Below are positions 1 through 28,566 of a DNA stretch of 40,569 nucleotides, one piece after another. A program made the translations under genes and the position numbers. The notes under the pieces are model-generated. The model did not search any database. It was not told the DNA's origin and saw nothing but the letters and a program-made list of their open reading frames with translations. The stretch covers positions 1 to 40,569 of the IMG/VR virus record IMGVR_UViG_3300043419_002109; one strand, given 5' to 3'. The stretch comes from a virus. How positions within the stretch are numbered: the stretch's first letter is position 1; the number at the start of each line of letters is the position of its first letter.

Positions 1-68
1 AACTTAGAGTTAGCAGAATTACAATTATTCCACTCATAAAGATTGCCAAAATCTAAACGATAAATCAC
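1..68 (-). CDS. Possible partial gene running off the window edge
   Basis: An open frame starts with GTG at 68 and continues to the window edge. Its GTGA overlaps the TGA stop of the preceding HAD gene by four bases, a coupling used elsewhere in this window. It reads IYRLDFGNLYEWNN and onward for about 22 residues with no stop. No family is recognisable from so short a piece. A competing ATG near position 39 in another frame would give a hydrophobic peptide. Neither choice can be settled here. Confidence 0.3.
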   Translation of the reverse strand, partial: MIYRLDFGNLYEWNNCNSANSK

Positions 69-6093: not shown

Positions 6094-6124
6094 CAAAGAT
6101 AGTAAAACTTTTTCAATTGTCAAA
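6094..6124 (-). promoter_or_regulatory. Promoter of the tRNA-like gene
   Basis: The minus strand reads TTTG (6124-6121), 19 bases, then TATCTTTG (6101-6094). Ten bases follow before the first acceptor base at 6083, so the expected transcription start is within a few bases of the mature 5' end. Confidence 0.8.
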
Positions 6125-6758
6125 TTATATTTCTAATTATTTTACAAGGTGATCCATATGCCACAACATTATCAGGAATATCTTTTGTAACAACTGATCC
6201 AGCTCCTATAATAGAATTCTTACCTATCTTTACTGTGTGTAATATATTAGTACCCATTCCAATTGTTGTGCCTTCGCCTATTACAACATTGCCAGCAATA
6301 TTAACACCTGGATTAATAGAGCAATAATCTTCTATTATAGTATGATGTCCTATAGAAACGTGTCTATTAATTGAAACAAAATCACCAATTGTTGTATGAG
6401 CAGCAATTGATACTTTTGAATTGATTAAAACTCCTCTTCCTATTTTACTCATTTTAGATATATCTAAACCACTATGTATAATATTAGTAAATTTATTCAC
6501 ATCAGGCTTTAATGATTCTATTATTTTTATTTTATGTTGAGGTTGATAAACACCCAGAGTCATTTTATCATATTCATTTAGGTCTAAATCATCTAATACT
6601 TTTATATCAAATTCATCATGTTCAAATGTGTTCAGTATAGGAAGTTTTAGATTATTGTATATGTGAATTTCTGGTGTACTCTTATTAGAATATAAATTAT
6701 CTAATATCATTGTTATAATATTATCTCCTTTACCTATTATTAATAATTTTGTTTCCAT
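6120..6758 (-). CDS. NeuD/PglD-like sugar O- or N-acetyltransferase
   Basis: 212 residues. The first 25 resemble the nucleotide-sugar-binding start of NeuD-type enzymes (KLLIIGKGDN). From about residue 100 the sequence is a left-handed beta-helix built of hexapeptide repeats ([I/V]GxxxxI spacing: TIGDFVSI, VSIGHHTII, VVIGEGTTIG, VKIGKNSIIG) and ends with GSVVTKDIP, typical of acetyl-CoA-dependent sugar acetyltransferases. The histidines in HVSIGHH fit the catalytic position. It overlaps the end of the BKACE gene by 29 bases and follows a glycosyltransferase-like gene, so it probably acetylates a sugar in a phage-directed glycan pathway in the cytoplasm. Confidence 0.85.
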   Translation of the reverse strand: METKLLIIGKGDNIITMILDNLYSNKSTPEIHIYNNLKLPILNTFEHDEFDIKVLDDLDLNEYDKMTLGVYQPQHKIKIIESLKPDVNKFTNIIHSGLDISKMSKIGRGVLINSKVSIAAHTTIGDFVSINRHVSIGHHTIIEDYCSINPGVNIAGNVVIGEGTTIGMGTNILHTVKIGKNSIIGAGSVVTKDIPDNVVAYGSPCKIIRNII

Positions 6759-7557
6759 ATCCTAATTGTTTTAATTCTTTTGATGTATAATGATTTATAT
6801 CTAACTCATTCATTATTCTATGTAATCTTTTTAAGAGTTCACTATTTGTTGTTTTTTTCTTTTCTTTAAGATATAAATTATCCTCAAGTCCAATTCTAAC
6901 GCCATCAAAATCTAATAAACCATATAAGTTACTATTTAATTGTTGATTTCCTATACCACCTAAACAAACATATGAGTTTGATGGTAAGTTAGCTTTAATT
7001 GATGATAGATTACTTAAATCACACTGACCGTTGTATATATTACCTAAGATTATATTAATGTGATATGGTGGATTTAATTTACCTTTTGATATAAGATAAT
7101 TAGTATAATTCAACATACCTGTATCAAAACATTCTATCTCTGGCTGTACTCCATATTTATTCATTTCATCTATCAAAGATAGAATCATATTAGGTTGATT
7201 AACTGAGGCACCTGATGGAAAATTTAAAGAAGACATAGTTAGTGAACCCATATCAGGTAGTAACTGTAACACTTCTGATCTTTTCTCTAATTCAGGAAAA
7301 TTTCTACCCGTTAAAGAAACACAAATCAATAACTCAGGACAATATTTTTTTATACCCTCTATTATCTTTTGATATACTTCTTTCTTATAAGTATTCTCTA
7401 ATGTAATCTCATCTCTTGCGTGTAAATGAACTATAGATATACCTAATTCATTAGCCTCATGTACAGACTCAATTATCTCATTTGGAATCAAAGGAGCATA
7501 CGAATTATCTCTTGTGGTTTGTGTACCAGTTGGAGTAAAATTAATTATTTTGTTCAC
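6730..7557 (-). CDS. BKACE-family enzyme (DUF849-like, Kce-like)
   Basis: About 275 residues from the GTG chosen here. The BKACE signatures are present: FTPTGTQTT at the start, VHLHARD (HxH metal-binding pair), CFDTGM in the middle and VRIGLEDN near the end. Characterised members bind zinc and cleave beta-keto acids with acetyl-CoA, as in lysine fermentation. The substrate here is unknown. The only in-frame ATG (7647) adds 30 residues that are just a second reading of the upstream gene, so GTG at 7557, overlapping that gene by 17 bases, is preferred. Its place between a glycosyltransferase-like and an acetyltransferase gene suggests sugar or acyl-sugar chemistry. Confidence 0.75.
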   Translation of the reverse strand: MNKIINFTPTGTQTTRDNSYAPLIPNEIIESVHEANELGISIVHLHARDEITLENTYKKEVYQKIIEGIKKYCPELLICVSLTGRNFPELEKRSEVLQLLPDMGSLTMSSLNFPSGASVNQPNMILSLIDEMNKYGVQPEIECFDTGMLNYTNYLISKGKLNPPYHINIILGNIYNGQCDLSNLSSIKANLPSNSYVCLGGIGNQQLNSNLYGLLDFDGVRIGLEDNLYLKEKKKTTNSELLKRLHRIMNELDINHYTSKELKQLGYGNKIINNR

Positions 7558-8497
7558 AAATAAATGATTTATTTTTATAGATTTCTCTTTCGATTTGGTC
7601 AAAATTCTTTTCAAATAAAATTTTAACAGAGTTATCAATTCTAACATTATCTATTTCATCAAATGTACCTAATGGTCTTACATACCAATGATTTGGTTTA
7701 ACATCCAAATTAATAACTTTTTGTTTATTAACAATAACAGTTATTTTTTCTTCAAAATCAAAACCTTTATAAAATAAATTTAATGATCCGTCATCAGGAT
7801 TATAATAAAAAGTATAGTGTAGATTTCTATTATAAAAATGCTCACCACCCTTAAATCTATTATACAATCCATTTGTATTTTTAAATAAAACTTTTCCGGA
7901 ATTCATAAAAATTCTTTTTGTTAAAAACTCCAAAGCGGCTGGATTCATTTTTGAAATTTCATTTTTAATAAATTCACGATTATAATTTTTGAAATTATCT
8001 GGAAGTGAGCTAACTTTAAATGACTTGAATGATCCATAAAGAAAACCATCTTCTTTACCAGTGTTTGTATAAATTACTGAATCACATTCTTCAAGTAAAT
8101 TACTGTGTTCGTTTATAAGATTTACATCTAAAAGCTCACAGTCATATTCAATATGATGAATATTTTGATAACCAAAATTTATAGCTATTTGACTAGCAAT
8201 TGAAAACATTCTATAAATGGCAAATCCATAAAAATATTTTTCAAAAAATATAGATTGAATCACATTATTATTAAATGAGAAATACTTTAAACCCAGTAGT
8301 TTGTAATCATCTGAAATATCATTTAGATAATCATAAAAATAATATTGACACTTTTTCTGAATATGTATTGGAGCATGTGAGTGTGAAATAAGAGCAACGT
8401 GAGCATCTGATTTAATTACTGAATCAATACATTTTTCTAAACACCTTTCTTGCTCTTCAGTTTTACAATAGGCGGTTACTATTATTAAATCTTTCAT
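7541..8497 (-). CDS. Glycosyltransferase-like protein (GT-A type, tentative)
   Basis: 318 residues. The N-terminus, MKDLIIVTAYCKTEEQERCLEKCIDSV, resembles the nucleotide-binding start of GT-A glycosyltransferases, and HIEYDCELLD near residue 120 could provide the acidic metal-binding pair. The C-terminal third is beta-rich. Assignment is by fold resemblance and context, since acetyltransferase and BKACE genes follow directly. A role in host or virion glycan modification is inferred. It starts 9 bases after the stop of the tagged 247-residue gene. Confidence 0.6.
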   Translation of the reverse strand: MKDLIIVTAYCKTEEQERCLEKCIDSVIKSDAHVALISHSHAPIHIQKKCQYYFYDYLNDISDDYKLLGLKYFSFNNNVIQSIFFEKYFYGFAIYRMFSIASQIAINFGYQNIHHIEYDCELLDVNLINEHSNLLEECDSVIYTNTGKEDGFLYGSFKSFKVSSLPDNFKNYNREFIKNEISKMNPAALEFLTKRIFMNSGKVLFKNTNGLYNRFKGGEHFYNRNLHYTFYYNPDDGSLNLFYKGFDFEEKITVIVNKQKVINLDVKPNHWYVRPLGTFDEIDNVRIDNSVKILFEKNFDQIEREIYKNKSFICEQNN

Positions 8498-11332: not shown

Positions 11333-14300
11333 TTATCTCAATAATGTAACGTGACCATATTTCTCAAAAGATGTACCATCCGAAGTTTTGAATCTTATTC
11401 TATAAACATAAACATCTTCTTTAACTACTTCACCTTTACAAGTTCCATCCCACCCTTTTTTATAATCATTGGTTGTAAATAGTAATAATCCCCATCTATC
11501 AAATATTTCTAATTTGTAAAATCTTTGGTCTAAACCATATGATGTAAATACTGGTATAAAAACATCATTCAAATTATCATAGTTTGGAGTAAATGTATTT
11601 GGTATCGATACATTAAAATCATTTTTAACTTCTACCCACTTAGTCATCCAATCCTTACAGCCTTCAGAAGTCATTGATATTAAATTAACTTCATATCTAC
11701 CAATCTTACTAAAAATAACATTAGGGTTCACTTCATTAGAACTTAAATTTATACTTGGTATCGACCAAGTGTATGTACAAAACCCTAATGGATTTGTTTT
11801 ATTATTTAATTTTAAGTTTGGCTCGGATATTAGAATATCATCAACTATAAAGTTAGCAACTGGTTTAGAAAAAACACTTACACTTGGAGTCGATACTAAT
11901 TTAGCACCACAACCTTCAGCACTTATATAACTAAAATTAGCAGTATAAGTTCCATTTGATGTATAAGTATGAGATGTATATAATCCATAAGACTCAGTTC
12001 CATCATCAAATCTCCAAGTACCTTCACCCTCATATTTATCAGTCGTAAATACTACTTGTAACGGAGCGCATCCTGAGTTAGTATTAGTTAAAACACTGAC
12101 TGTTGGTGTTTCAGCAACAAATATATTTATCATTGAACTATCTTTACAAACATTAGTAATTGAGTTTGTCCAATAAGTAACATAGTTGTTACCAACATTA
12201 GCCGAATTAGGATTAAACATATTACCAATTACACCTGATCCAGACCAAATATAACCAGGATTCTGAACAAGTGAATTAAGATTAAATGGAAATTCATAAT
12301 CTTTACAATAAACGGATTTAGGATATTTATCAAAATCAGCAGAGATAAACTTCTCAATATTAATCGTTGTTTGAGCGTATGCTATACAAGGACCAGCAGT
12401 AATACTATAATTAACTACATTGTTTCCAATCGTTCCATATGCTGGATTAACCAACCCAGCTAAAGTTACTAAACCATTATATCCACCAAATAGTCCACCA
12501 ATTGGTGTTACTTGTAATTGAAATGGTGAATGAGTATTACAAATAGTATTTGGTTTTGTGATTTGAGGTGATTGTAAAGAATAAACTCTTACTGAAGTTG
12601 TTGATGTACTAGGACATAAACCACTAGGAGAGGAAGCTGTATTGTGAACTAAGGTTATTGTTCCTGTGTTAGCACTATATGGAGTAAACATTGACCCATT
12701 AACACCAGGACCTGACCATGAACCAGGAAAAATCGCATAATTATTTAAGTTAATAGCTAAGCTTGTATTACATAAATCTGGTATCTGACTTGTAATAGTT
12801 GATGGTACAAACATCTCAACATTAATTAATTTTGTTTGTTGTGAGTTACAAGTACTAGTTCCTATTACATACTGAATAAAGTTATTACCAATGGCACAGA
12901 GTGATGGAGTTAAAACACCATTTGAATTAAGATAAGGAGTCGTTATCCAACTACCTGTACTTGGTGTAACTGACATTTGTATTGGAGCATCTTTACTACA
13001 AAAAGGTCCGACTAGTGTAATATTAGGCATTGGTGGATTAAGTACCGATACATTTATAGTTCTACTATCAGGACAAAGACTAGTATTAGGTGATGAACTA
13101 GTGTTATATGTTATAACATAAGTTCCAGTAATTAATCCAGTTGGATTAAATGAGTTTTGAGTAACACCTAAACCAGACCAGATACCTGTTGTGTTTTGAA
13201 CAATAGACATTAAGTTGAATGGATTACTATTAACACACATATTAGGAACTACTCCAGTTAATGAGGCAGTATTAAATGTTGAAGGATATATGTTAAATGT
13301 ATTTGTATTTACACAAGGTCCAACACTAACTACATAGTTCACAATACTACTTGATGGTGAAGATAGAGAAGGAGTAACAACACCTAAAATACTAACAGCT
13401 GAGTTATTAGACCAACTACCACCATTTGGATTAGCCGATAGTACAAACGAAGATGTGTTATTACAGAATGGTCCAGGATTTGTCATTGTAGGAATAACTG
13501 TATTTGTAACAGTTACGTTTAGTTGAGTGCTTGAAGGACAAACAGTTGGATTTGGATTAGATATAGTATTGTAGGTTAAAGTATAAACTCCACTTAACCC
13601 AACTGGACTAAATACATTGTTTATAACATTCACTCCTGACCATGATCCTGTTGCGTTCTGAACAATGTTGATTAGATTAGTAGTCGGACTGGTTACACAT
13701 AGTGGAGCTACTGAACTTGTTAAGGTTGATGGAACAAATTGATTAAGCTGAAAACTAGTAGTAGTAATAGCAGTACATCCATTCACATTGATTGCGTAAG
13801 ATACTGTGTTTGTTCCTAATGCTAAGTTAGTTGCAGTTGGTACTATAAGTCCATTAGGTATAGAAAATACACCTCCAGGAGGACTAGCAAGTATTTGATA
13901 GTTAGTTCCATTAGTACATAGGTTAGGTATAGCTGTAATGGTTGGGATAGGAGGATTGGTTGCCAACAAAGTCATTGTTCGTGTTAATGGACAATTAATG
14001 ACACTAGGAGTAATTGTGACTGAGTAAGTTATGTTTGATTGAGTTCCTACTGCAAGTGCTGGAGTTATGATAGTGTTTTGTAAGGTTGGATTGTTAGCAA
14101 ACAAAAACACATTAGGAGTCCAAGAGTAAGTGTATTGACCAATGATTGGAGGTGTAGGAAAAGTAACACCAGCAGCAAAAGCACTTCCAGCACAGATTAC
14201 TACAGATGTAGGAGATAATATAGGACTAAACGAATGTGTATTAACATTTAAGATAGTGTTATAAAGGCAAGAGCCATCAAAAGCAGATATACTATATTGA

Positions 14301-15988
14301 CCTGCTGCGAATCCATTAAAAGTGTATTGAGTAGCTGATGTAATACCTGAAGTTGAAGTATATGCTGGAGTTAAAGAAGTATTCTGTACAGCAAAGCTGA
14401 TTATTCCAGGAGGAGCTCCGGCAGCAGGTATCAAGTTGATTGTGCCTGTTCCATTATTCAAACCCGAGCAAACAGAAGTAGATGTAACCGTCATTAATCC
14501 AGGAGCAGATGTTATTAAAGTAAAGCTAACATTTGATAGACAGTTTTGTGTGTTAACATAAGTTAGATTGTACACAGCACCATTAGATGGATTAGTAACA
14601 GTATAGTTAGCCGCAGTACCTACAGATCCAGTAATAGCAGTATTTCCATTAAACCACTGAAAGTTAGAGCCACCTATAGTGTTTAGATATGCTTGACCAT
14701 TACAGAATGGCTTGTATAAGTTTTGTGTTGCTGTAGTGGCGGTTCCAATAGATACTGTAGTAGAAGCCGCACCACACATAGCATTACCTAATCCAGCAAT
14801 AGTAACAGAATAAATACCAGCGGGTAAATTAACGGCAACTGAAGAACTACCAACAACAGAGTTTGTAGAGTTAGTCCAAGTATAAGTATAACCTGAGCCA
14901 CTACCATTACCTTGTACAGTAGCTGTTCCGGAAGAACCTAAAGGACAACTAGGAGAAGATCCAATCCCAGCAATACTAATTGTTGATGTATTTAGAGTAT
15001 TAATTGCGCTTAACTGACAACCACCTTGTGATACCAATTGAACTGTATAAGTCTGACCTGGTATTGGATTTGTAACTGTCAAGACTGACAATGTTCCTTG
15101 AGGAGCAGGTATTATTCCATTAGGACCATACCATTGATAAGAGTTATAACCAGCAGGCGCGGCAATAGTAGCTACACCAGATCCAGAACAATAAGACACG
15201 GGACCTGGTATTGGACCTCCTGGTATTCCACCTAATCCTTGTCCTATTAACTGACCACCACACTGAGCATCAAAGAAAGTAGTACCATAGTGACCACCAA
15301 AGTTACAATCAGCAGTCCAAGCTTCTATTGTAACACATCCTCCAATGTAAGGAGTTAGATCAATAACCTTAACTTGCCAATTAGACATTACACCAAGTGT
15401 ACCACAAGCAGTAAAAGAAACATTAGCTACAGTACCACAATTAGCCGCTAATGTCATTGAAGAACAAGAAGCAACTGTATTACCACTACAAGCATTAAGA
15501 ACTCGTAGATATAATCCGGGTTGGTCACAACAACTATGTCCAGGGTTTTCATAATATCCAGCAAACGCAAATTGAAATAAAGTATTCAATGAAGTTACGT
15601 TGAATGTAGTTGATATTTTATTTCTAGCATAGTTGAAATTGTTATCGTTTAATTTAGCAACTCGATTACCTCCAAAAGGAGAATTACCTAATATAAATGA
15701 ACACCCTCCACCGTTGCTATTATAAGTCAATGGAGTGGATACAATAGCAAATTCATTAGCTCCTAAGTTATAAGGTGTTCCTAAATTGGCACAATTATAA
15801 TTGGCACTGGCACTATTAGCATAGTTACTTGATAAAGTCCAACCGGTAACCGCATAAGCATTACCAGCTCCTATATAAGTTCCAGGTGATGTTTGCTCAA
15901 AACCTAGATTTGTTGGACACTGAGCATTTCCAAATGTAGTTACTAAACTAAAAAGGAAACTAATAATTATTTTAGTTAGATTTTTCAT
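11333..15988 (-). CDS. Giant T9SS type B surface protein (gliding-motility C-terminal domain)
   Basis: 1551 residues. A signal peptide (MKNLTKIIISFLFSLVTTFGNA) leads to a cysteine-rich N-terminal domain, then many Thr/Ser/Gly-rich Ig-like units. Between about residues 760 and 1295 there are roughly three and a half tandem units of about 155 residues sharing QNxTGxWSGxGV and GPFCN-like anchors. A PKD-like region (about 1297-1370, WRFDDG) follows. The last ~95 residues (IPNTFTPNYDNLNDVF, FDRWGLLLF, GWDG, YVYRI) are the gliding-motility-associated domain that directs type IX secretion, type B. Such proteins are adhesins or exoenzymes of Bacteroidota; in a phage it may remodel the host surface or be virion-linked. 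It overlaps the small exported gene upstream. Confidence 0.9.
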   Translation of the reverse strand: MKNLTKIIISFLFSLVTTFGNAQCPTNLGFEQTSPGTYIGAGNAYAVTGWTLSSNYANSASANYNCANLGTPYNLGANEFAIVSTPLTYNSNGGGCSFILGNSPFGGNRVAKLNDNNFNYARNKISTTFNVTSLNTLFQFAFAGYYENPGHSCCDQPGLYLRVLNACSGNTVASCSSMTLAANCGTVANVSFTACGTLGVMSNWQVKVIDLTPYIGGCVTIEAWTADCNFGGHYGTTFFDAQCGGQLIGQGLGGIPGGPIPGPVSYCSGSGVATIAAPAGYNSYQWYGPNGIIPAPQGTLSVLTVTNPIPGQTYTVQLVSQGGCQLSAINTLNTSTISIAGIGSSPSCPLGSSGTATVQGNGSGSGYTYTWTNSTNSVVGSSSVAVNLPAGIYSVTIAGLGNAMCGAASTTVSIGTATTATQNLYKPFCNGQAYLNTIGGSNFQWFNGNTAITGSVGTAANYTVTNPSNGAVYNLTYVNTQNCLSNVSFTLITSAPGLMTVTSTSVCSGLNNGTGTINLIPAAGAPPGIISFAVQNTSLTPAYTSTSGITSATQYTFNGFAAGQYSISAFDGSCLYNTILNVNTHSFSPILSPTSVVICAGSAFAAGVTFPTPPIIGQYTYSWTPNVFLFANNPTLQNTIITPALAVGTQSNITYSVTITPSVINCPLTRTMTLLATNPPIPTITAIPNLCTNGTNYQILASPPGGVFSIPNGLIVPTATNLALGTNTVSYAINVNGCTAITTTSFQLNQFVPSTLTSSVAPLCVTSPTTNLINIVQNATGSWSGVNVINNVFSPVGLSGVYTLTYNTISNPNPTVCPSSTQLNVTVTNTVIPTMTNPGPFCNNTSSFVLSANPNGGSWSNNSAVSILGVVTPSLSSPSSSIVNYVVSVGPCVNTNTFNIYPSTFNTASLTGVVPNMCVNSNPFNLMSIVQNTTGIWSGLGVTQNSFNPTGLITGTYVITYNTSSSPNTSLCPDSRTINVSVLNPPMPNITLVGPFCSKDAPIQMSVTPSTGSWITTPYLNSNGVLTPSLCAIGNNFIQYVIGTSTCNSQQTKLINVEMFVPSTITSQIPDLCNTSLAINLNNYAIFPGSWSGPGVNGSMFTPYSANTGTITLVHNTASSPSGLCPSTSTTSVRVYSLQSPQITKPNTICNTHSPFQLQVTPIGGLFGGYNGLVTLAGLVNPAYGTIGNNVVNYSITAGPCIAYAQTTINIEKFISADFDKYPKSVYCKDYEFPFNLNSLVQNPGYIWSGSGVIGNMFNPNSANVGNNYVTYWTNSITNVCKDSSMINIFVAETPTVSVLTNTNSGCAPLQVVFTTDKYEGEGTWRFDDGTESYGLYTSHTYTSNGTYTANFSYISAEGCGAKLVSTPSVSVFSKPVANFIVDDILISEPNLKLNNKTNPLGFCTYTWSIPSINLSSNEVNPNVIFSKIGRYEVNLISMTSEGCKDWMTKWVEVKNDFNVSIPNTFTPNYDNLNDVFIPVFTSYGLDQRFYKLEIFDRWGLLLFTTNDYKKGWDGTCKGEVVKEDVYVYRIRFKTSDGTSFEKYGHVTLLR

Positions 15989-17438: not shown

Positions 17439-18017
17439 TTAGTTTTTAATTTTATACAAATCTACGAGTTTTTTTAATGACTCAAAACATTTTTTAGCAG
17501 TTTCATCTGAGATATTTCCATCATAGTTGGATTTACTTGGTATTTCAATTTCAATGTTTGTACCACGATGGTCGTAACCAATGTGAAAGTTAGCGCCTTC
17601 AACATTTACAAAGTAAGAAGCATAAGATTCTTTAACCTCTGGTTCACCATATTCGTCAGTTTCTTCATCATACTCACCATCAAATCCTTCACCGAATTCA
17701 TCGTGAAAAATTGGGTCACCAAACATATTTTTTAAAGCCTCTTCATCTAAAACACCGGTCAAGAAGTGAATAGCGATGGATGTGTAAGTTCTACTTTCTG
17801 GGCTAATAAAGTCTTTGATTTTTGTAATTAAACCTTTTCTTTCTTTTAGTTTATCAGCATAGAATCCAAGATAAGGTATTTTCTCAATATCTAATGTTTC
17901 GGTAATATACTTACCTAATTCAGCATACCAATTCTCTGAACGATTGTTCATAATAATATTCATTATAGGAGTATAATGAGTTTTACCTTTTGTGTAGTCT
18001 TTTAATTTTTGTTCCAT
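17439..18017 (-). CDS. Hypothetical acidic protein
   Basis: 192 residues with no recognised family. A helical N-terminal half is followed by a very acidic stretch (EFGEGFDGEYDEETDEYGEPE) and a beta-rich end. It starts 24 bases downstream of the RNase P RNA on the same strand, so the RNA and this gene may be cotranscribed and separated by processing. Confidence 0.75.
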   Translation of the reverse strand: MEQKLKDYTKGKTHYTPIMNIIMNNRSENWYAELGKYITETLDIEKIPYLGFYADKLKERKGLITKIKDFISPESRTYTSIAIHFLTGVLDEEALKNMFGDPIFHDEFGEGFDGEYDEETDEYGEPEVKESYASYFVNVEGANFHIGYDHRGTNIEIEIPSKSNYDGNISDETAKKCFESLKKLVDLYKIKN

Positions 18018-18040: not shown

Positions 18041-18257
18041 ATATAAGTTTAGTATAGCCGCGATTCTGTTCTATCCCATCATTTATCTATGCCACAACCC
18101 GACTATTACAGGGGAACCGACACCCTAAGTCTGTATGTGTTGCTACTTCCTCGGTACAAACGAACTTTCAATTTCTTTACTTATTCTCCCGTGTTAGGTT
18201 CTGTAGTCGCGAACTTCCTCCAGTATTTCTACCAGCGATAGGTCCTTTGACTTATAT
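18041..18257 (-). ncRNA. rnpB: RNase P RNA, compact form
   Basis: The RNA reads from 18257 to 18041. It has the universal 5' core GGAGGAAGTTCGCGAC (CR I, around 18221-18206) and the 3' core TAGATAAATGATGGGATAG then AACAGAATCGCGGCT (CR V, around 18088-18056), matching the order and spacing of E. coli M1 RNA. Helix P4 keeps pairing through compensatory changes: CGCGA/TCGCG here for CCGGG/CCCGG in E. coli. The ends pair as P1, ATATAAGT (18257-18250) with ACTTATAT (18048-18041). An AGGG/CCCT stem with GGTT in its loop (18118-18115) could be P15/L15, which holds the tRNA CCA end. Only about 140 bases separate the cores and no specificity-domain motifs are seen. It should be the catalytic RNA that trims tRNA 5' ends. 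Confidence 0.85.
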
Positions 18258-18722
18258 TATACTTCCAATTTTCATATCTCTTAAAACAACTTTTACATTG
18301 TCTTTATTCTTTTCTAAAACTTCACCAACAAATCTTTCTGTTCTATGATGTAATCCTCTTTTATCCGGTACATCTGATATCATATTCATTGGTCCGATAT
18401 ACTCTTCAAACTTTTCAGACATTGATATCAAATTCATATTTTGAGTTGAGTGAAGATACATTAAAATATTTTTTACTTCTAAAGAATATTTTTCATATAC
18501 ACGCCATCTTTTCCAATAATCAAGAAAAAAGTTAGTCATACTATCCAGTGTGTACATTTTATACTCAACTATTGGTTCAAATCCAATCCAGTAATTATAC
18601 TTTTCAAGAATATAGTCTGGACTATGACTCAAAAGATCATTATTATGAATAAACTTACTGAAGTTCACATTGAACTTAGTAAGATTCACAATTTGATTAT
18701 ATTCTTTATTTAAAGATACCAT
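18252..18722 (-). CDS. Hypothetical helical protein, C-terminal tag
   Basis: 156 residues from MVSLNKEYNQ, with no family recognised. An ATG at 18785 would add a hydrophobic segment (MNFIYILKTIVFVLIFSIFVE), but those codons overlap a TATATTTG box lying 5 bases before the ATG at 18722, and a TATATAAATA element on the other strand. The shorter start is therefore preferred. The C-terminus, VVLRDMKIGSII, is a clear tag copy. Its stop codon lies within helix P1 of the RNase P RNA. Confidence 0.65.
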   Translation of the reverse strand: MVSLNKEYNQIVNLTKFNVNFSKFIHNNDLLSHSPDYILEKYNYWIGFEPIVEYKMYTLDSMTNFFLDYWKRWRVYEKYSLEVKNILMYLHSTQNMNLISMSEKFEEYIGPMNMISDVPDKRGLHHRTERFVGEVLEKNKDNVKVVLRDMKIGSII

Positions 18723-18727
18723 TTCTA

Positions 18728-18773
18728 CAAATATACTAAAAATTAAAACAAAAACAATGGTTTTTAATATATA
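18728..18773. promoter_or_regulatory. Divergent promoter region
   Basis: Minus strand: TATATTTG (18735-18728), 5 bases before the ATG at 18722. Plus strand: TTTAATATATA (18763-18773), continuing AATA to give TATAAATA, the exact T4 late-promoter core, 21 bases before the ATG at 18795. The -33 box of the minus-strand promoter is not clear. Confidence 0.55.
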
Positions 18774-18794
18774 AATAAAATTCATTTTCGAAAC

Positions 18795-19769
18795 ATGAAA
18801 ATTAAACATAAAGTTGTTAAGGAGTTTCAGTATTTAAGTCCTGATAAAAAAATCTTTATTCTTAAAATAGGTGCTATCTTAGAAGAGTACATTTATAAGG
18901 TAAAGACTGAATTAATTCCTATTGATAAAGCCATTATTGATAATAATCCAGAATTTTTCGAGGTCATCGATTGGAAAGCCGAATTATTAACATTTATGAG
19001 AGCTGAAAAAATGCCTCAACCTGCTCAGTTAGGTAAAAAATTAATTCCTTTCTTTGAAGATATGATTATGTCTTCAATTCAACATGATAATATTCCGTCT
19101 ATCGATCCTACTTTGATGAAGGATGTAGAAAGAAGAGAGATTGAATTAAACACTTTTAAAAGAGATTTAGATAGAAGAGAAACTGATTTAGATTCAAGAG
19201 ATAGAAGAATCAAAGATAAAGAAGATGAACTTGAAATCAGAATTAAAAGAGTTGAAAAAAGAGAAGACGAATATAAATTAGATCTTAAAACAATTGAAAA
19301 GAAAGACGATGATTTAAGATTAAGAACAAGAACTATAACTGAAAAAGAATTAGACTTACAAGAAAAGATTCAAGAGTTAAATGAGAGAGAAAGAAATCTT
19401 GATAGAACTGCTCTTTCATCTGCTAAAGAATATGATTCTAAATACGCAGAACTTCAAACTAAAATTGATTCTGACTTAGCTGATCTTTCTAAGAGAGAGA
19501 AAGAATTAGAAGCTGGATTCAAAAAAGTTCAAGAATTAGAGTCTATGTTAGAATCTAAGATGAATGAAATTACAGAGGCTAATAAAAGTAAAATATACGG
19601 TGATTTAGAGGCTGAATTAAAAGGAATAGAATCAGAAGTTAGAAATATTAGTAGCATAGCAAATAGCCTTTCAGGATTTAATCATCCAGTTGTTATTCAA
19701 GTTGCTGGTGAGTTAACAAGAGCAATACAAAAGTTAAAAGATAGAGTTGACAATAATATGTTCGACTAA
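18795..19769 (+). CDS. Coiled-coil protein with seven 14-residue repeats
   Basis: 324 residues. Residues 1-110 are a compact helical domain. From 113 to 210 the chain is seven consecutive 14-residue units, each close to [RK]-[RK]-E-x-x-L-x-x-R-x-x-x-[IL]-x, that is, two heptads per unit. A further coiled coil runs to about 270 and a helical end follows. It is probably a long rod, perhaps a scaffold, a length gauge or a tail/neck component; this is inference. A late-type element precedes it and a strong terminator follows. There is no signal peptide or membrane segment. Confidence 0.8.
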   Translation: MKIKHKVVKEFQYLSPDKKIFILKIGAILEEYIYKVKTELIPIDKAIIDNNPEFFEVIDWKAELLTFMRAEKMPQPAQLGKKLIPFFEDMIMSSIQHDNIPSIDPTLMKDVERREIELNTFKRDLDRRETDLDSRDRRIKDKEDELEIRIKRVEKREDEYKLDLKTIEKKDDDLRLRTRTITEKELDLQEKIQELNERERNLDRTALSSAKEYDSKYAELQTKIDSDLADLSKREKELEAGFKKVQELESMLESKMNEITEANKSKIYGDLEAELKGIESEVRNISSIANSLSGFNHPVVIQVAGELTRAIQKLKDRVDNNMFD

Positions 19770-21935: not shown

Positions 21936-24146
21936 TTATCTGATAATAGTTACATAACCCATAACAGTTCTTTTCTCTGAAGAGTTTAAAACCGTAAACT
22001 GAGATTTCCAAAAATAACAACCATCTGGAACATAATACCCATTATAAGATCCATCCCACTCACCATTTATATCATGACATTCCCATATCATTTGACCCCA
22101 TCTATTGAATATAGACATAGTGAAATCTTGCTCATCAACACCTGATAAGTAGAATTTCCAAGTTGAATTGAATTCATCACCACCCGGAGTGAAAGCATTA
22201 GGTATATAAGTTAATACATCTGGATTAACAATTAAAACAACAGAAGATGAATCACTACAACCTAAGCTATTTTGAACTGTTAGAGTAATTAAATACTGAC
22301 CTATAATTCCTTCAGGGTATGTGAAATTTGGATTAGAAAGACCACTAGTTAGTTCTAAAGATCCTGGTGCTGACCAATTCCAAGCCACAATATTAGGACC
22401 TGAATAATCAAATGTAGAAACAGTTGTCTCAAACATTGTTGTTGGGTTTGGTCCAACCATAAACTGAGAAACTGGCAATGAAACGGTTTCTACTATATTG
22501 TTAAATGTTTGTGTGTATGTACATCCATAATCATTAACCGTTGTTACTATAACATCCCAAATACCAACTGTACTATAAGTATGTGTAAAGTTGGAATTTG
22601 ATAATATATTATCAGTAAATCCATCACCATAATCTACTATTGAACTAACAATATTAACAGTAGGTGTAGAGTTATTAATAAAGTTAAATATACCTGGAAC
22701 ACAAAGAATTGTATCAACCGGTGATACTGAAATATTTATAGGTGTTGGAAAATCAATAAAAACGATTGAGTCTATAGTACAACCATTATTATCTGTTACA
22801 GAAACTGTATAGTTACCACCAGAAAGATTAGTAATTGTATCATTTGATATTAAACCATCTATAAAATAATCATATGTTGGTGTTCCATCATTTGGATAAA
22901 TAAAAATTTGTCCATCATTTAATGAGCAAGTAACATCAGATAAAACTAAACTATCAAAAATCAATTGTGTTGGTTGAGTTATATTAACAGTGGTATTTGC
23001 TGAACATCCGTTTATATCAGTTACATTTACACTATAAACACCAGCACATAAACTAGTAGCAGTTTGAGTTGTTTGACCATTTGACCATAAATAATTATAT
23101 AGTGGTGTTCCTGTTATTGGAGTAACAGTTGCTGTCCCATTACAATCATTAAAACAAAGTGGTTCGGTAAATGAAGTATTAAGAAGAATGTTAGGTGGAC
23201 CTGGCACAACTAAAACAGTATCTGGTCCAGGTCCAGCAATACCAGCATTACAAGAAGTCCAACCCGCATTACAAATAGGGTAAACAAAATGACAAGTATA
23301 TTGTGTTGGTACTAATGGATTTACAGTTATAGTAGGACCTGTTCCAATAGCAACTGGATTACCAACTTGATACCAAGTTAATACAGGTGTAACTACTGGT
23401 CCACTAGGTGTCCATTTCCAAGCATCATTATTAGCAACCCAAGCAGTTGAATTTCTACCAGGTACTGGAATTCCTATTGTACCCGCTAAGTTATGTATAC
23501 CTTCAACAGCAGTACCACCTTGCCAACCTAAACAAGCCGGTTTATTTTGAATATAATTTTCAATATTATTACTAGATTCATAAATAACTATATGAAATGT
23601 TCCTTGATTACCTGTACAAGAGAACATTGGAACCCCAATCCAACTAACTGTTAGTTTTCTACAAGGAGCAACACCAGACGTTTGATATCTAATTTGACCT
23701 CCAATACCAGGATGCCAATCTTGCCAAGGTCCCATAATACAGTTCTTTGGAACTAAAGGACTGACAGTTGGTATTAGTTGAGAACTAAATGTTGTTGGTT
23801 GTGCTGGTGAGAAAGATATCCAACCATTTGAACCTATATAAAATTGAGTGTATGTTGTACCAAAGAAACAAAAGTTAAAACCTATATTAAAAGGTCCTTG
23901 TTGTGAATCATCAGTCATAAATAACTGAGTTCCCGTATTTGTTTGAGCAACATAAGGAATAGAAGCAACAGAATAGTTAGTTGTTTGATTTGGATTTGTA
24001 CCAGCACCACAAGCGGTTAGATTAGCAGTCAATATAGCAGTATTTACACCACAAGGTAAAATCTGATTTGGTCCTAATTCAGGACAGTTCTGTGAAATAG
24101 CAAATAAACTAATCACAGAAAATAACATAGTTAGCAATTTTCTCAT
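21936..24146 (-). CDS. T9SS type B surface protein with SprB-like and PKD-like repeats
   Basis: 736 residues. A signal peptide (MRKLLTMLFSVISLFAISQ) is followed by a domain with aromatic and glycine-rich sequence (GFNFCFFGTTYTQFYIGSNG) seen in Bacteroidota surface proteins. Residues about 325-470 contain SprB-like repeats (NGTATVTPITGTPLYNYLWS, SVTDNNGC). PKD-like units follow (VDYGDGF, NWSAPG). The last ~85 residues (YIPNAFTPGGDEFNSTWKF, IFNRWGQMIWE, EWDGSYNG, PDGCYFWK) are the gliding-motility/T9SS type B C-terminal domain. It should be exported and attached to the host surface by the host T9SS. It is the second such protein here. Confidence 0.9.
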   Translation of the reverse strand: MRKLLTMLFSVISLFAISQNCPELGPNQILPCGVNTAILTANLTACGAGTNPNQTTNYSVASIPYVAQTNTGTQLFMTDDSQQGPFNIGFNFCFFGTTYTQFYIGSNGWISFSPAQPTTFSSQLIPTVSPLVPKNCIMGPWQDWHPGIGGQIRYQTSGVAPCRKLTVSWIGVPMFSCTGNQGTFHIVIYESSNNIENYIQNKPACLGWQGGTAVEGIHNLAGTIGIPVPGRNSTAWVANNDAWKWTPSGPVVTPVLTWYQVGNPVAIGTGPTITVNPLVPTQYTCHFVYPICNAGWTSCNAGIAGPGPDTVLVVPGPPNILLNTSFTEPLCFNDCNGTATVTPITGTPLYNYLWSNGQTTQTATSLCAGVYSVNVTDINGCSANTTVNITQPTQLIFDSLVLSDVTCSLNDGQIFIYPNDGTPTYDYFIDGLISNDTITNLSGGNYTVSVTDNNGCTIDSIVFIDFPTPINISVSPVDTILCVPGIFNFINNSTPTVNIVSSIVDYGDGFTDNILSNSNFTHTYSTVGIWDVIVTTVNDYGCTYTQTFNNIVETVSLPVSQFMVGPNPTTMFETTVSTFDYSGPNIVAWNWSAPGSLELTSGLSNPNFTYPEGIIGQYLITLTVQNSLGCSDSSSVVLIVNPDVLTYIPNAFTPGGDEFNSTWKFYLSGVDEQDFTMSIFNRWGQMIWECHDINGEWDGSYNGYYVPDGCYFWKSQFTVLNSSEKRTVMGYVTIIR

Positions 24147-26809: not shown

Positions 26810-27544
26810 TTATCCGATCACGACTAACTTAATCTCACCATCTAAATCTTCATATAAAAATGAACAGGTCTCACAGAAATCACCTGTGTTGTAGTAGGTT
26901 TTTTCTCCTATTTTTTCAATTGCTGGTGTGTGAATATGTCCAATCATAATTGAATCACAATCAACCTCATCTAATTTTCTAAGTGATAAAATTTTGAAGT
27001 CATTAATAAATGTTATAGCATTCTTAACTTTATATTTGAGATATTGAGATAAAGACCAATATTCTAAACCTACAATTTTTCTTAACCAGTTATAAGCTTT
27101 GTTAATCTTAAAACTAAATTCGTAAGCCCAGTCACCTAAGACATATAAAAAAGGATGTAATCTGATAAAACCATCAAACTGGTCACCGTGACAAATGTAT
27201 ATTTTCTCACCTTTAGATGTTTCATAATACATCTCATCACAAATAGTTATATCACCAATATTTATATTCTCATCTTTTATTAAACCTCTTAAATAGAAAT
27301 CATGATTGCCTAATATGTAAGTAACATTAACTCCTTTTCTGGATGCTCTTAAAACTTTTTGAATAACTGTTGAATGATTAGCATTCCAATAGAATTTCTT
27401 TTTTAATGATGTTAAATCGATGAAGTCTCCAACGATTACTAAATTTTCATATTCATAGTCTCTCAAAACTTCAAGTAGTTTTTCTGGTTGTGATTTGTGG
27501 TTACCTAAATGTATATCAGATACAAATAATGTTTTAACTTTCAT
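26810..27544 (-). CDS. Metallophosphoesterase, LpxH-like
   Basis: 244 residues with every calcineurin-type metal motif: SDIHLG (8-13), GDFIDL, GNHD, CHGDQFD and GHIHTP. The overall pattern matches UDP-2,3-diacylglucosamine hydrolase-like phosphoesterases, which act in lipid A or related glycolipid pathways. It overlaps the upstream glycosyltransferase by 11 bases; this pairing is common in Bacteroidota, suggesting one glycolipid pathway. The actual substrate is unproven. Confidence 0.85.
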   Translation of the reverse strand: MKVKTLFVSDIHLGNHKSQPEKLLEVLRDYEYENLVIVGDFIDLTSLKKKFYWNANHSTVIQKVLRASRKGVNVTYILGNHDFYLRGLIKDENINIGDITICDEMYYETSKGEKIYICHGDQFDGFIRLHPFLYVLGDWAYEFSFKINKAYNWLRKIVGLEYWSLSQYLKYKVKNAITFINDFKILSLRKLDEVDCDSIMIGHIHTPAIEKIGEKTYYNTGDFCETCSFLYEDLDGEIKLVVIG

Positions 27545-28469
27545 ATATCTCTTTTATTTTAGTAACTATACTTTCAATTGGATTAATCCATTCATAATCT
27601 ATTTTAGTATAATTATTTAACCAATTTTCTAAATTTTCAGAAGTTAAGTCATCTGTATAGATACCTAACTTATTTAACTTTGTAGCATTATCAATTTGTT
27701 CAAACTGACCTTTTATTGGAATTGACCATAGTCTTTTACCTAAAACAAGAGCCTCAGATGTTGTTGAGAATCCAGAAGCAGTTATAACTCCAGAACATCT
27801 AAGTAAGTCAGACTGAAATGAATCTTTATTTGATTTTTTGAATTCTATATTGTTATAAACGTAATCTACAATAACATCACTACTATAAACTTTGAATTTT
27901 TTATCTGAGTATTTAAGTTCATTCTTAATATGTTCCAAACTGTAAGCGGCTAAGTAAACTAAATAGAAATCTTCATCAGATACTTTACCATTCAAGAACT
28001 TCTCAGATATAATAGGCTGATAACCATTTGTATAATCTAAAGGTATATAATAATCACAAGGAGCAAAGTATTTAATAAAAAGAGATTCTAAAAAACTTGA
28101 TTTTGTAATTGAAACTTGATTTGAAATACCTATTGATCTTACCTTGTACTTTTTAGCAGAGTAAGCACTTATAGGTTCAAAGTCAGAGATAACTAAATCA
28201 TATCCACTACAATCATAATTTATATCTTTTATTAATTTAAATAAATTTAATGATAATGTTGTTTTAAGTTTATTGATTCTACCAGACTTGTTAAAATACA
28301 TTGACAAACCTTTGAACTTCTTAATGTAATCTGGTAATTCTATACTGTAGTTACCACCAGAGGCAATAACATCAACTTCATAACCTTTAGCCTTTAGTTG
28401 ATTTATCAATTCTAAAGATCTTGTTATATGTCCGTTTCCATTAAGTTGTATTCCGTATAAAATTTTCAT
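27534..28469 (-). CDS. GT-B glycosyltransferase
   Basis: 311 residues starting MKILYGIQLNGNGHITRSLELINQL, the glycine-rich N-terminal loop of GT-B (Glyco_trans_1_3-type) enzymes. The C-terminal donor site is visible as ITASGFSTTSEALVLGKRLWSIP, then QFEQIDNA. It likely transfers a sugar from a nucleotide donor to a lipid or envelope acceptor. It is translationally coupled to the LpxH-like phosphoesterase. A TTG codon immediately upstream is less likely as the start. Confidence 0.85.
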   Translation of the reverse strand: MKILYGIQLNGNGHITRSLELINQLKAKGYEVDVIASGGNYSIELPDYIKKFKGLSMYFNKSGRINKLKTTLSLNLFKLIKDINYDCSGYDLVISDFEPISAYSAKKYKVRSIGISNQVSITKSSFLESLFIKYFAPCDYYIPLDYTNGYQPIISEKFLNGKVSDEDFYLVYLAAYSLEHIKNELKYSDKKFKVYSSDVIVDYVYNNIEFKKSNKDSFQSDLLRCSGVITASGFSTTSEALVLGKRLWSIPIKGQFEQIDNATKLNKLGIYTDDLTSENLENWLNNYTKIDYEWINPIESIVTKIKEIYES

Positions 28470-28566
28470 CAATATATCTATTCATGTATAAAAGTCATTT
28501 TTAATAAAGTTCTTTAATTCTTAAAAATTACACTGATTTTTCAATGTTATTTTTATGCTAAGTAAA

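Follow-up and report, generated by a model that had tools for sequence, protein, structure and literature searches.

We report a minimal RNase P RNA on the minus strand of a viral DNA of 40,569 nucleotides (IMG/VR virus record IMGVR_UViG_3300043419_002109, positions 1 to 40,569; hereafter the window). The RNA runs from 18257 to 18041 (217 nt, P1 to P1'; located by a leave-out covariance model and by structure counts), and the feature is confirmed as real. We hold with considerable confidence that it is a catalytic-domain-only RNase P RNA of bacterial descent, most likely a ribozyme acting in trans on phage pre-tRNAs with an RnpA of the host or of the phage. Its homology, the selection on its structure, the tRNA-array context of the family and the RnpA genes encoded along with it in three relatives are observed. 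It is also probable that a distinct class of trans-acting RNase P RNA free of the specificity (S) domain is spread among phages of several host phyla, and that some huge phages encode a full RNase P (RNA and RnpA), processing their own tRNAs independently of the host.

The 20 phage loci behind the covariance model include neither the window nor its close relatives; the match of the model spans 18274-18034 (165 bits, E 3e-46), and the runner-up in the window reaches only 10 bits. The Rfam RNase P models gave no match to the window at gathering, nor at E up to 10 over a 331-base stretch, and the Rfam gathering score of RF00010 or RF00011, one of the criteria for class A/B, is not reached. Folding of the single window sequence was not better than that of shuffles (z 1.1). 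The identity was therefore settled by comparison with relatives. An original prediction, made from the letters alone, had placed an RNase P RNA at 18041-18257; these coordinates are right, the RNA lying on the minus strand, and the identity is supported by the leave-out model together with covariation in 28 phage relatives. The lack of any significant covariance-model match, which was to refute the prediction, does hold for Rfam's own models on the window, but it is overturned by the leave-out model and by the significant RF00010 and RF00373 matches of relatives. Homology and a structure under selection are established by these comparisons; activity and substrates of the RNA are inferred.

The following elements are kept in the window RNA: P1-P7, P15 with an AA bulge, L15 (ACAG/CGGGUU), P16, P17, and CR I, IV and V (all coordinates on the minus strand). 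P1 is formed by 18250-18257 (5' strand) and 18041-18048 (3' strand), the perfect 8-bp helix that had been claimed (18257-18250 with 18048-18041). P2 pairs CCUAUC (18237-18242) with GAUGGG (18080-18075), crossing P4, with compensatory changes in 6/6 pairs; P3 is a hairpin with a GAAA loop (CUGGUA-GAAA-UACUGG, 18220-18235; 95.2% of cells paired, 5/6 pairs compensatory). CR I, GAGGAAGUUCGCGACU (18205-18220; also read as GGAGGAAGUUCGCGA), comprises the start of P5 and the 5' strand of P4, in which the equivalent of U69 is bulged; CR V, ACAGAAUCGCGGCU (18056-18069), comprises the 3' strand of P4. CR IV, AUAGAUAAAUGAUG, lies at 18077-18090, with no P18 between P15 and CR IV. The cores named beforehand, CR I as GGAGGAAGTT and CR V as ACAGAATCGCGGCT, are both present, and the segment said to precede CR V, TAGATAAATGATG, is CR IV. 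The window thus has the RNase P hallmark of P2 and P4 crossing, with CR IV (J18/2). P5 pairs CUAC (18203-18206) with GUAG (18146-18143), paired in 100% of cells in the 28 RNAs; P6 pairs AACC (18200-18197) with GGUU (18115-18118) and rests on an alignment-free test; P15 (C-AA bulge-NNCA / UGNNG), L15, P16 and P17 occupy 18092-18142, P16 being paired in 100% of cells.

The entire remnant of the specificity domain is P7 (96.4% paired) with one hairpin (18152-18191). The S domain is lost beyond this point, so that a domain of P7-P14 with CR II/III is not present. The absence of a specificity domain, as claimed, is borne out by the 56 nt between the P5 strands, which hold a single hairpin (41-102 nt over 62 members), and the distance between the cores, put at about 140 bases, was counted as about 142 nt. 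P18 is absent from the window and from most members; some members keep a hairpin at that place.

A GGTT-containing loop resembling that of P15 had been named as well. Two GGTT stretches occur, and the claim holds for only one of them: CGGGTTG (18101-18095) is the L15 equivalent, while GGTT (18118-18115) lies in L17, not L15. The stretch CGGGUUG (18095-18101), which we take to be L15 after comparing it ourselves with the sequence and numbering of E. coli as generally known, would correspond to the GGU motif, the pairing partner of the tRNA 3' CCA; it is found as CGGGTTG in 61/62 phage RNAs, and the GGU in L15 expected of class A/B is thereby present. A reading of the GGUU hairpin as P15 with a lost CCA-binding motif was rejected, since E. 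coli numbering makes CGGGUUG L15 and GGUU the partner of P6. The idea that L15 is tied to CCA encoded in the genome was likewise rejected: tRNA-encoded CCA is mostly all-or-none by phage across the carrying phages, and nearly all members keep CGGGTTG regardless.

Selection on the structure was assessed in an alignment of 28 phage RNAs, scored against a 44-pair structure including both pseudoknots. Paired cells amount to 94.9% (shuffle mean 71.2%) and drop to 32-44% when the 3' partners are slid by 1 to 3 columns; compensatory changes, with both sides changed, are seen in 34/44 pairs; doubly changed cells number 273 (shuffle mean 83); and the covariation score is 0.581 (shuffle mean 0.165). The original prediction was to be refuted if P2, P4 and P15 failed to form in related phages; they are paired in 100%, 99.1% and 97.1% of cells, respectively, and the compensatory changes claimed for P4 are present in 5/8 of its pairs. 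A count over 62 sequences, independent of the multiple alignment, had the same outcome for P4, P5 and P15: the 8 pairs of P4, with the bulged U, are paired in 60-62/62 RNAs per position, and the first 4 pairs of P5 in 60-62 of 62. For P1, P2, P6 and P16, the own partner pairs better than one swapped from another phage (62 RNAs); a P1 helix of at least 5 bp is found in 62/62, as is a P6 helix of at least 5 bp (mean 7.45 with the own partner, 4.90 with a swapped one). The aligned P6 columns are only 75.5% paired in the 28 RNAs, which we put down to misalignment of segments of variable length. P6 co-varies across phages (AACC/GGUU, CUGCU/AGCAG, GAGAAU/GUUCUC), also between close relatives (GAATGACA/TGTCATTC in Microbacterium phage A3Wally, GAATCATA/TATGATTC in Big4).

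These counts bear on the possibility that the gene is a decaying copy of a host rnpB acquired by recombination, which we consider very improbable. The phage RNAs are indeed shorter than host RNAs and unannotated, and some copies depart from the CR V consensus, but strong compensatory change over dozens of diverse phages cannot persist in decaying copies, and the short form is common to phages as unlike as Stenotrophomonas phage DLP6, A3Wally and the 735-kb phages. For the family, decay is excluded by the covariation.

Relatives were collected by pattern scans of IMG/VR (CR IV-CR V and P15-L15 patterns; loci were required to have CR I, P15/L15, CR IV and CR V in order). The ordered motifs occur in at least 90 viral loci, predominantly within tRNA arrays; in at least 74 of these loci the S region is short (<125 nt from CR I to P15). 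Among named phage genomes, blastn gave a full-length relative in LR745206.1 (635 kb; 72% identity) as well as copies in LR756501 (735 kb) and DLP6; follow-up queries added LR756502 (642 kb) and the Microbacterium phages A3Wally, Big4 and Zooman. The genes in cultured phages are unannotated (DLP6, KU682439.2 105771-106031; A3Wally, MZ150783.1 93836-94077; Big4, ON637770.1 91774-91992; Zooman, OK040793.1 89338-89551) and lie in or beside tRNA arrays, the RNA occupying an unannotated gap within the array in DLP6, A3Wally and Big4. RF00010 matches below its cut-off of 100 bits were obtained for A3Wally (72 bits, E 7e-20), L123 (61.5 bits) and DLP6 (54.7 bits); some members match RF00373 best, and the RF00010/RF00373 matches of relatives are significant though sub-threshold. 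One viral copy, L008, is a full class A match (247 bits), with 197 nt from CR I to P15 vs. 77 in the window.

Some viral copies depart from the common form. RNase P RNAs with longer S regions occur in the viral contigs L001, L003 and L008, possible intermediates or captured host copies. In L052 (332-698, minus strand) and L082 (322-690, plus strand), the loop of the lone S hairpin holds, where the specificity domain would be, a tRNA- or tmRNA-like domain with a T-arm (GACGGGTTCGAATCCCG in L052) and a CCA end; the Rfam tmRNA match in L082 (417-548) is just 14 bits, and ARAGORN calls nothing there. Inserts of about 100-150 nt with long near-perfect stems are found at the same loop in L059, L065, L104 and L115. 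This recurrence marks the S-hairpin loop as a frequent insertion site.

A search of about 85,000 cellular genomes, made with the P18-less pattern only, gave no P18-less example without an S domain; its sole match, in a bin of a WOR-3 bacterium (L139 534-922, plus strand), is a full class A RNA (208 bits). As this lone match has a full S domain, the short P18-less form was found only in viral records. The literature searched, which did not cover most subscription journals and preprint servers, yielded no description of an RNase P RNA encoded by a phage, and RNase P goes unmentioned in the main text of the huge-phage paper.

In the window, the RNA gene is flanked by two ORFs of the same strand: upstream, an ORF of 185 aa (18252-18809, minus strand) without Pfam or PHROG match, whose counterpart in the same position in L020 is 68% identical, and downstream, an ORF of 192 aa of unknown function (17439-18017, minus strand). 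The stop codon of the upstream ORF lies inside P1 (within its 5' strand), from which we infer that the RNA is probably either processed out of a longer transcript or transcribed from a start of its own at this point; scans for consensus promoters and terminators gave nothing above shuffles. The window has genes in common with a 385-kb viral contig (up to 86% identity), as well as with LR745206 and the 476-kb contig of L020, and it encodes phage-type topoisomerase II subunits. Two large window proteins (11333-15988 and 21936-24146, both minus strand) have C-terminal CHU_C type IX secretion signals and PKD domains, the latter protein also an SprB repeat, and both resemble surface proteins of Bacteroidota; the two secretion signals suggest a Bacteroidota host. 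Metabolic and sugar genes are also present (6120-7647 and 27534-28472: beta-keto acid cleavage enzyme, hexapeptide transferase, glycosyl transferase).

This setting, with neighbours shared with viral contigs and topoisomerase genes of phage type, speaks against reading the gene as an archaeal RNase P RNA of the T-type or as cellular contamination, which we find hardly credible. T-type RNAs are likewise without S domain (PMC7191817) and RF00373 is the best-scoring model for some members, but the partner protein in relatives is a bacterial RnpA, and the cellular genomes yielded only the one P18-less match with its full S domain.

RnpA genes were found in three huge phages: in LR745206 (Pfam PF00825, 49 bits; L137 1465-1812, LR745206.1), in the 476-kb contig of L020 (also PF00825; L138 1498-1797) and in LR756502 (tblastn, 52% identity; L147 1501-1776, LR756502.1). 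The RNR motif (RAVDRNR.KRLM.E) is present in all three, and a ClpP-like (protease) gene adjoins RnpA in LR745206 and the 476-kb contig, which are among the closest relatives of the window. RnpA was not found in 48/50 phage records, many of them fragments, and none was seen in the 40-kb window, itself a fragment; in the 48 records without RnpA, the host RnpA is the likely partner. If the reading given above is true, there is a virus whose genome supplies the whole holoenzyme of a ribozyme that is near-universal in cells.

The protein also enters an alternative in which the RNA is a decoy, binding host RnpA or pre-tRNAs without useful catalysis and so lowering host RNase P during infection. In bacteria, RnpA binds elements of the catalytic domain. 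Those elements are kept in the phage RNAs, and most of the carrying phage records show no RnpA, as a decoy would allow; yet a decoy has no need for the L15 GGU (61/62), a bulged P4, CR V or a compensated P6, and the RnpA co-encoded in three huge phages and the position in tRNA arrays argue for an activity in use. With the parts for substrate contact and the active site conserved, the decoy is the less likely reading, and we judge it improbable.

Processing of tRNAs by an active RNase P RNA accords with the large tRNA sets of the family. Six related records have 26-62 tRNAs each, the near relatives of the window 41-59, and tRNAs lie within the fetched flank of 57/68 loci scanned. No tRNA gene was found in the 40-kb window, a genome fragment, by ARAGORN or by Rfam at E up to 10. 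The odd tRNA-like gene that the original prediction had reported in the same genome could accordingly not be recovered in the window, and its suggestion that the phage adjusts tRNA processing, plausible from the flanking tRNAs of the scanned loci, is unproven and loses the support it had cited.

As we picture it, the core of P4, CR I and CR V would hold the metal ions and cleave the 5' leader, L15 would dock the CCA-proximal tRNA ends, and an RnpA-type protein would bind leader and RNA; the protein would be that of the host in most phages and the phage's own in the three huge relatives of the window. The RNA would most likely serve in 5' processing of the phage's own large tRNA set, at times when host RNase P is in short supply or favours other substrates. 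Expression, catalysis, substrates and protein partner are inferences, no activity or expression data being available. Published biochemistry gives the measure of what such an RNA can do. The E. coli C-domain without S domain cleaves, likely in dependence on a P6-like interaction, and P18 makes no contribution once the S domain is gone (PMC5839562); S-less RNAs of types A and B cleave pre-tRNA with and without protein, at lower affinity (PMC11143913). The phage RNAs retain the parts which this work calls needed, P6 being kept and P18 often dropped, and are thus most likely trans-acting minimal RNase P RNAs for phage tRNAs.

The best rival to this is altered specificity, in which the S-less ribozyme prefers non-canonical substrates (tmRNA-like or mRNA hairpins, or phage tRNAs whose T-arms are unusual). 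Contact with the T-loop region is normally made by the S domain, and E. coli RNA without residues 94-204 no longer cleaved one pre-tRNA and still cleaved pre-4.5S RNA (PMC11143913), so that the substrates of the phage RNA could differ; the tRNA-like inserts within the RNA of two phages (L052, L082) point the same way. However, ARAGORN and Rfam class the tRNAs next to the gene as ordinary ones, and L15 is retained for CCA contact. We regard altered specificity as possible but unlikely, and processing of ordinary phage pre-tRNAs remains our preferred reading.

RNase P belongs to the very small number of ribozymes that almost every cell retains. A class carried by viruses and lacking the substrate-recognition half is a natural test of which parts are needed, and it agrees with the published biochemistry of minimal domains (P6 kept, P18 dispensable). 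It is relevant to the question of why phages should carry tRNAs by the dozen, and it indicates that a large RNA family has gone unannotated, the short form of which is caught by no Rfam gathering threshold (members tested). The Microbacterium phages A3Wally, Big4 and Zooman and Stenotrophomonas phage DLP6 are cultured systems for S-domain-free RNase P.

Among known systems, bacterial class A (RF00010) shares with the phage RNA P1-P7, P15-P17, the P6 pseudoknot, CR I/IV/V, the bulged U of P4 and the L15 GGU, and phage relatives reach 72 bits against its model. It differs in that the phage RNA has one hairpin for P8-P14 of the S domain with CR II/III, lacks P18 in the window and most members, is phage-encoded, and stays below the Rfam gathering score; at about 217 nt, it compares with 377 nt for the E. 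coli RNA. The T-type RNase P RNA of Thermoproteaceae (Pyrobaculum) has an S domain that is almost absent (Lai et al. 2010, as described in PMC7191817), as has the phage RNA, but is archaeal and chromosomal, with archaeal RNase P proteins; encoding by Thermoproteaceae with such proteins does not apply here (phage gene context, RnpA in relatives), and the phage RNA has the bacterial L15 GGU and relatives that pair with RnpA, although the two were not compared directly in sequence. The engineered E. coli C-domain (Eco CP RPR; PMC5839562) is likewise C-domain only, depends on a P6-type contact and can dispense with P18, whereas the phage RNA occurs naturally, has a true P6 and is capped by a P7 hairpin. 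The protein-only HARP and PRORP (PMC6380272) are also alternative small enzymes of tRNA 5' processing, but are protein, not RNA, and unrelated to the phage RNA. As a viral class without S domain, bacterial in its L15 and its protein partner, the phage RNAs differ from both of the nearest known forms, class A and T-type.
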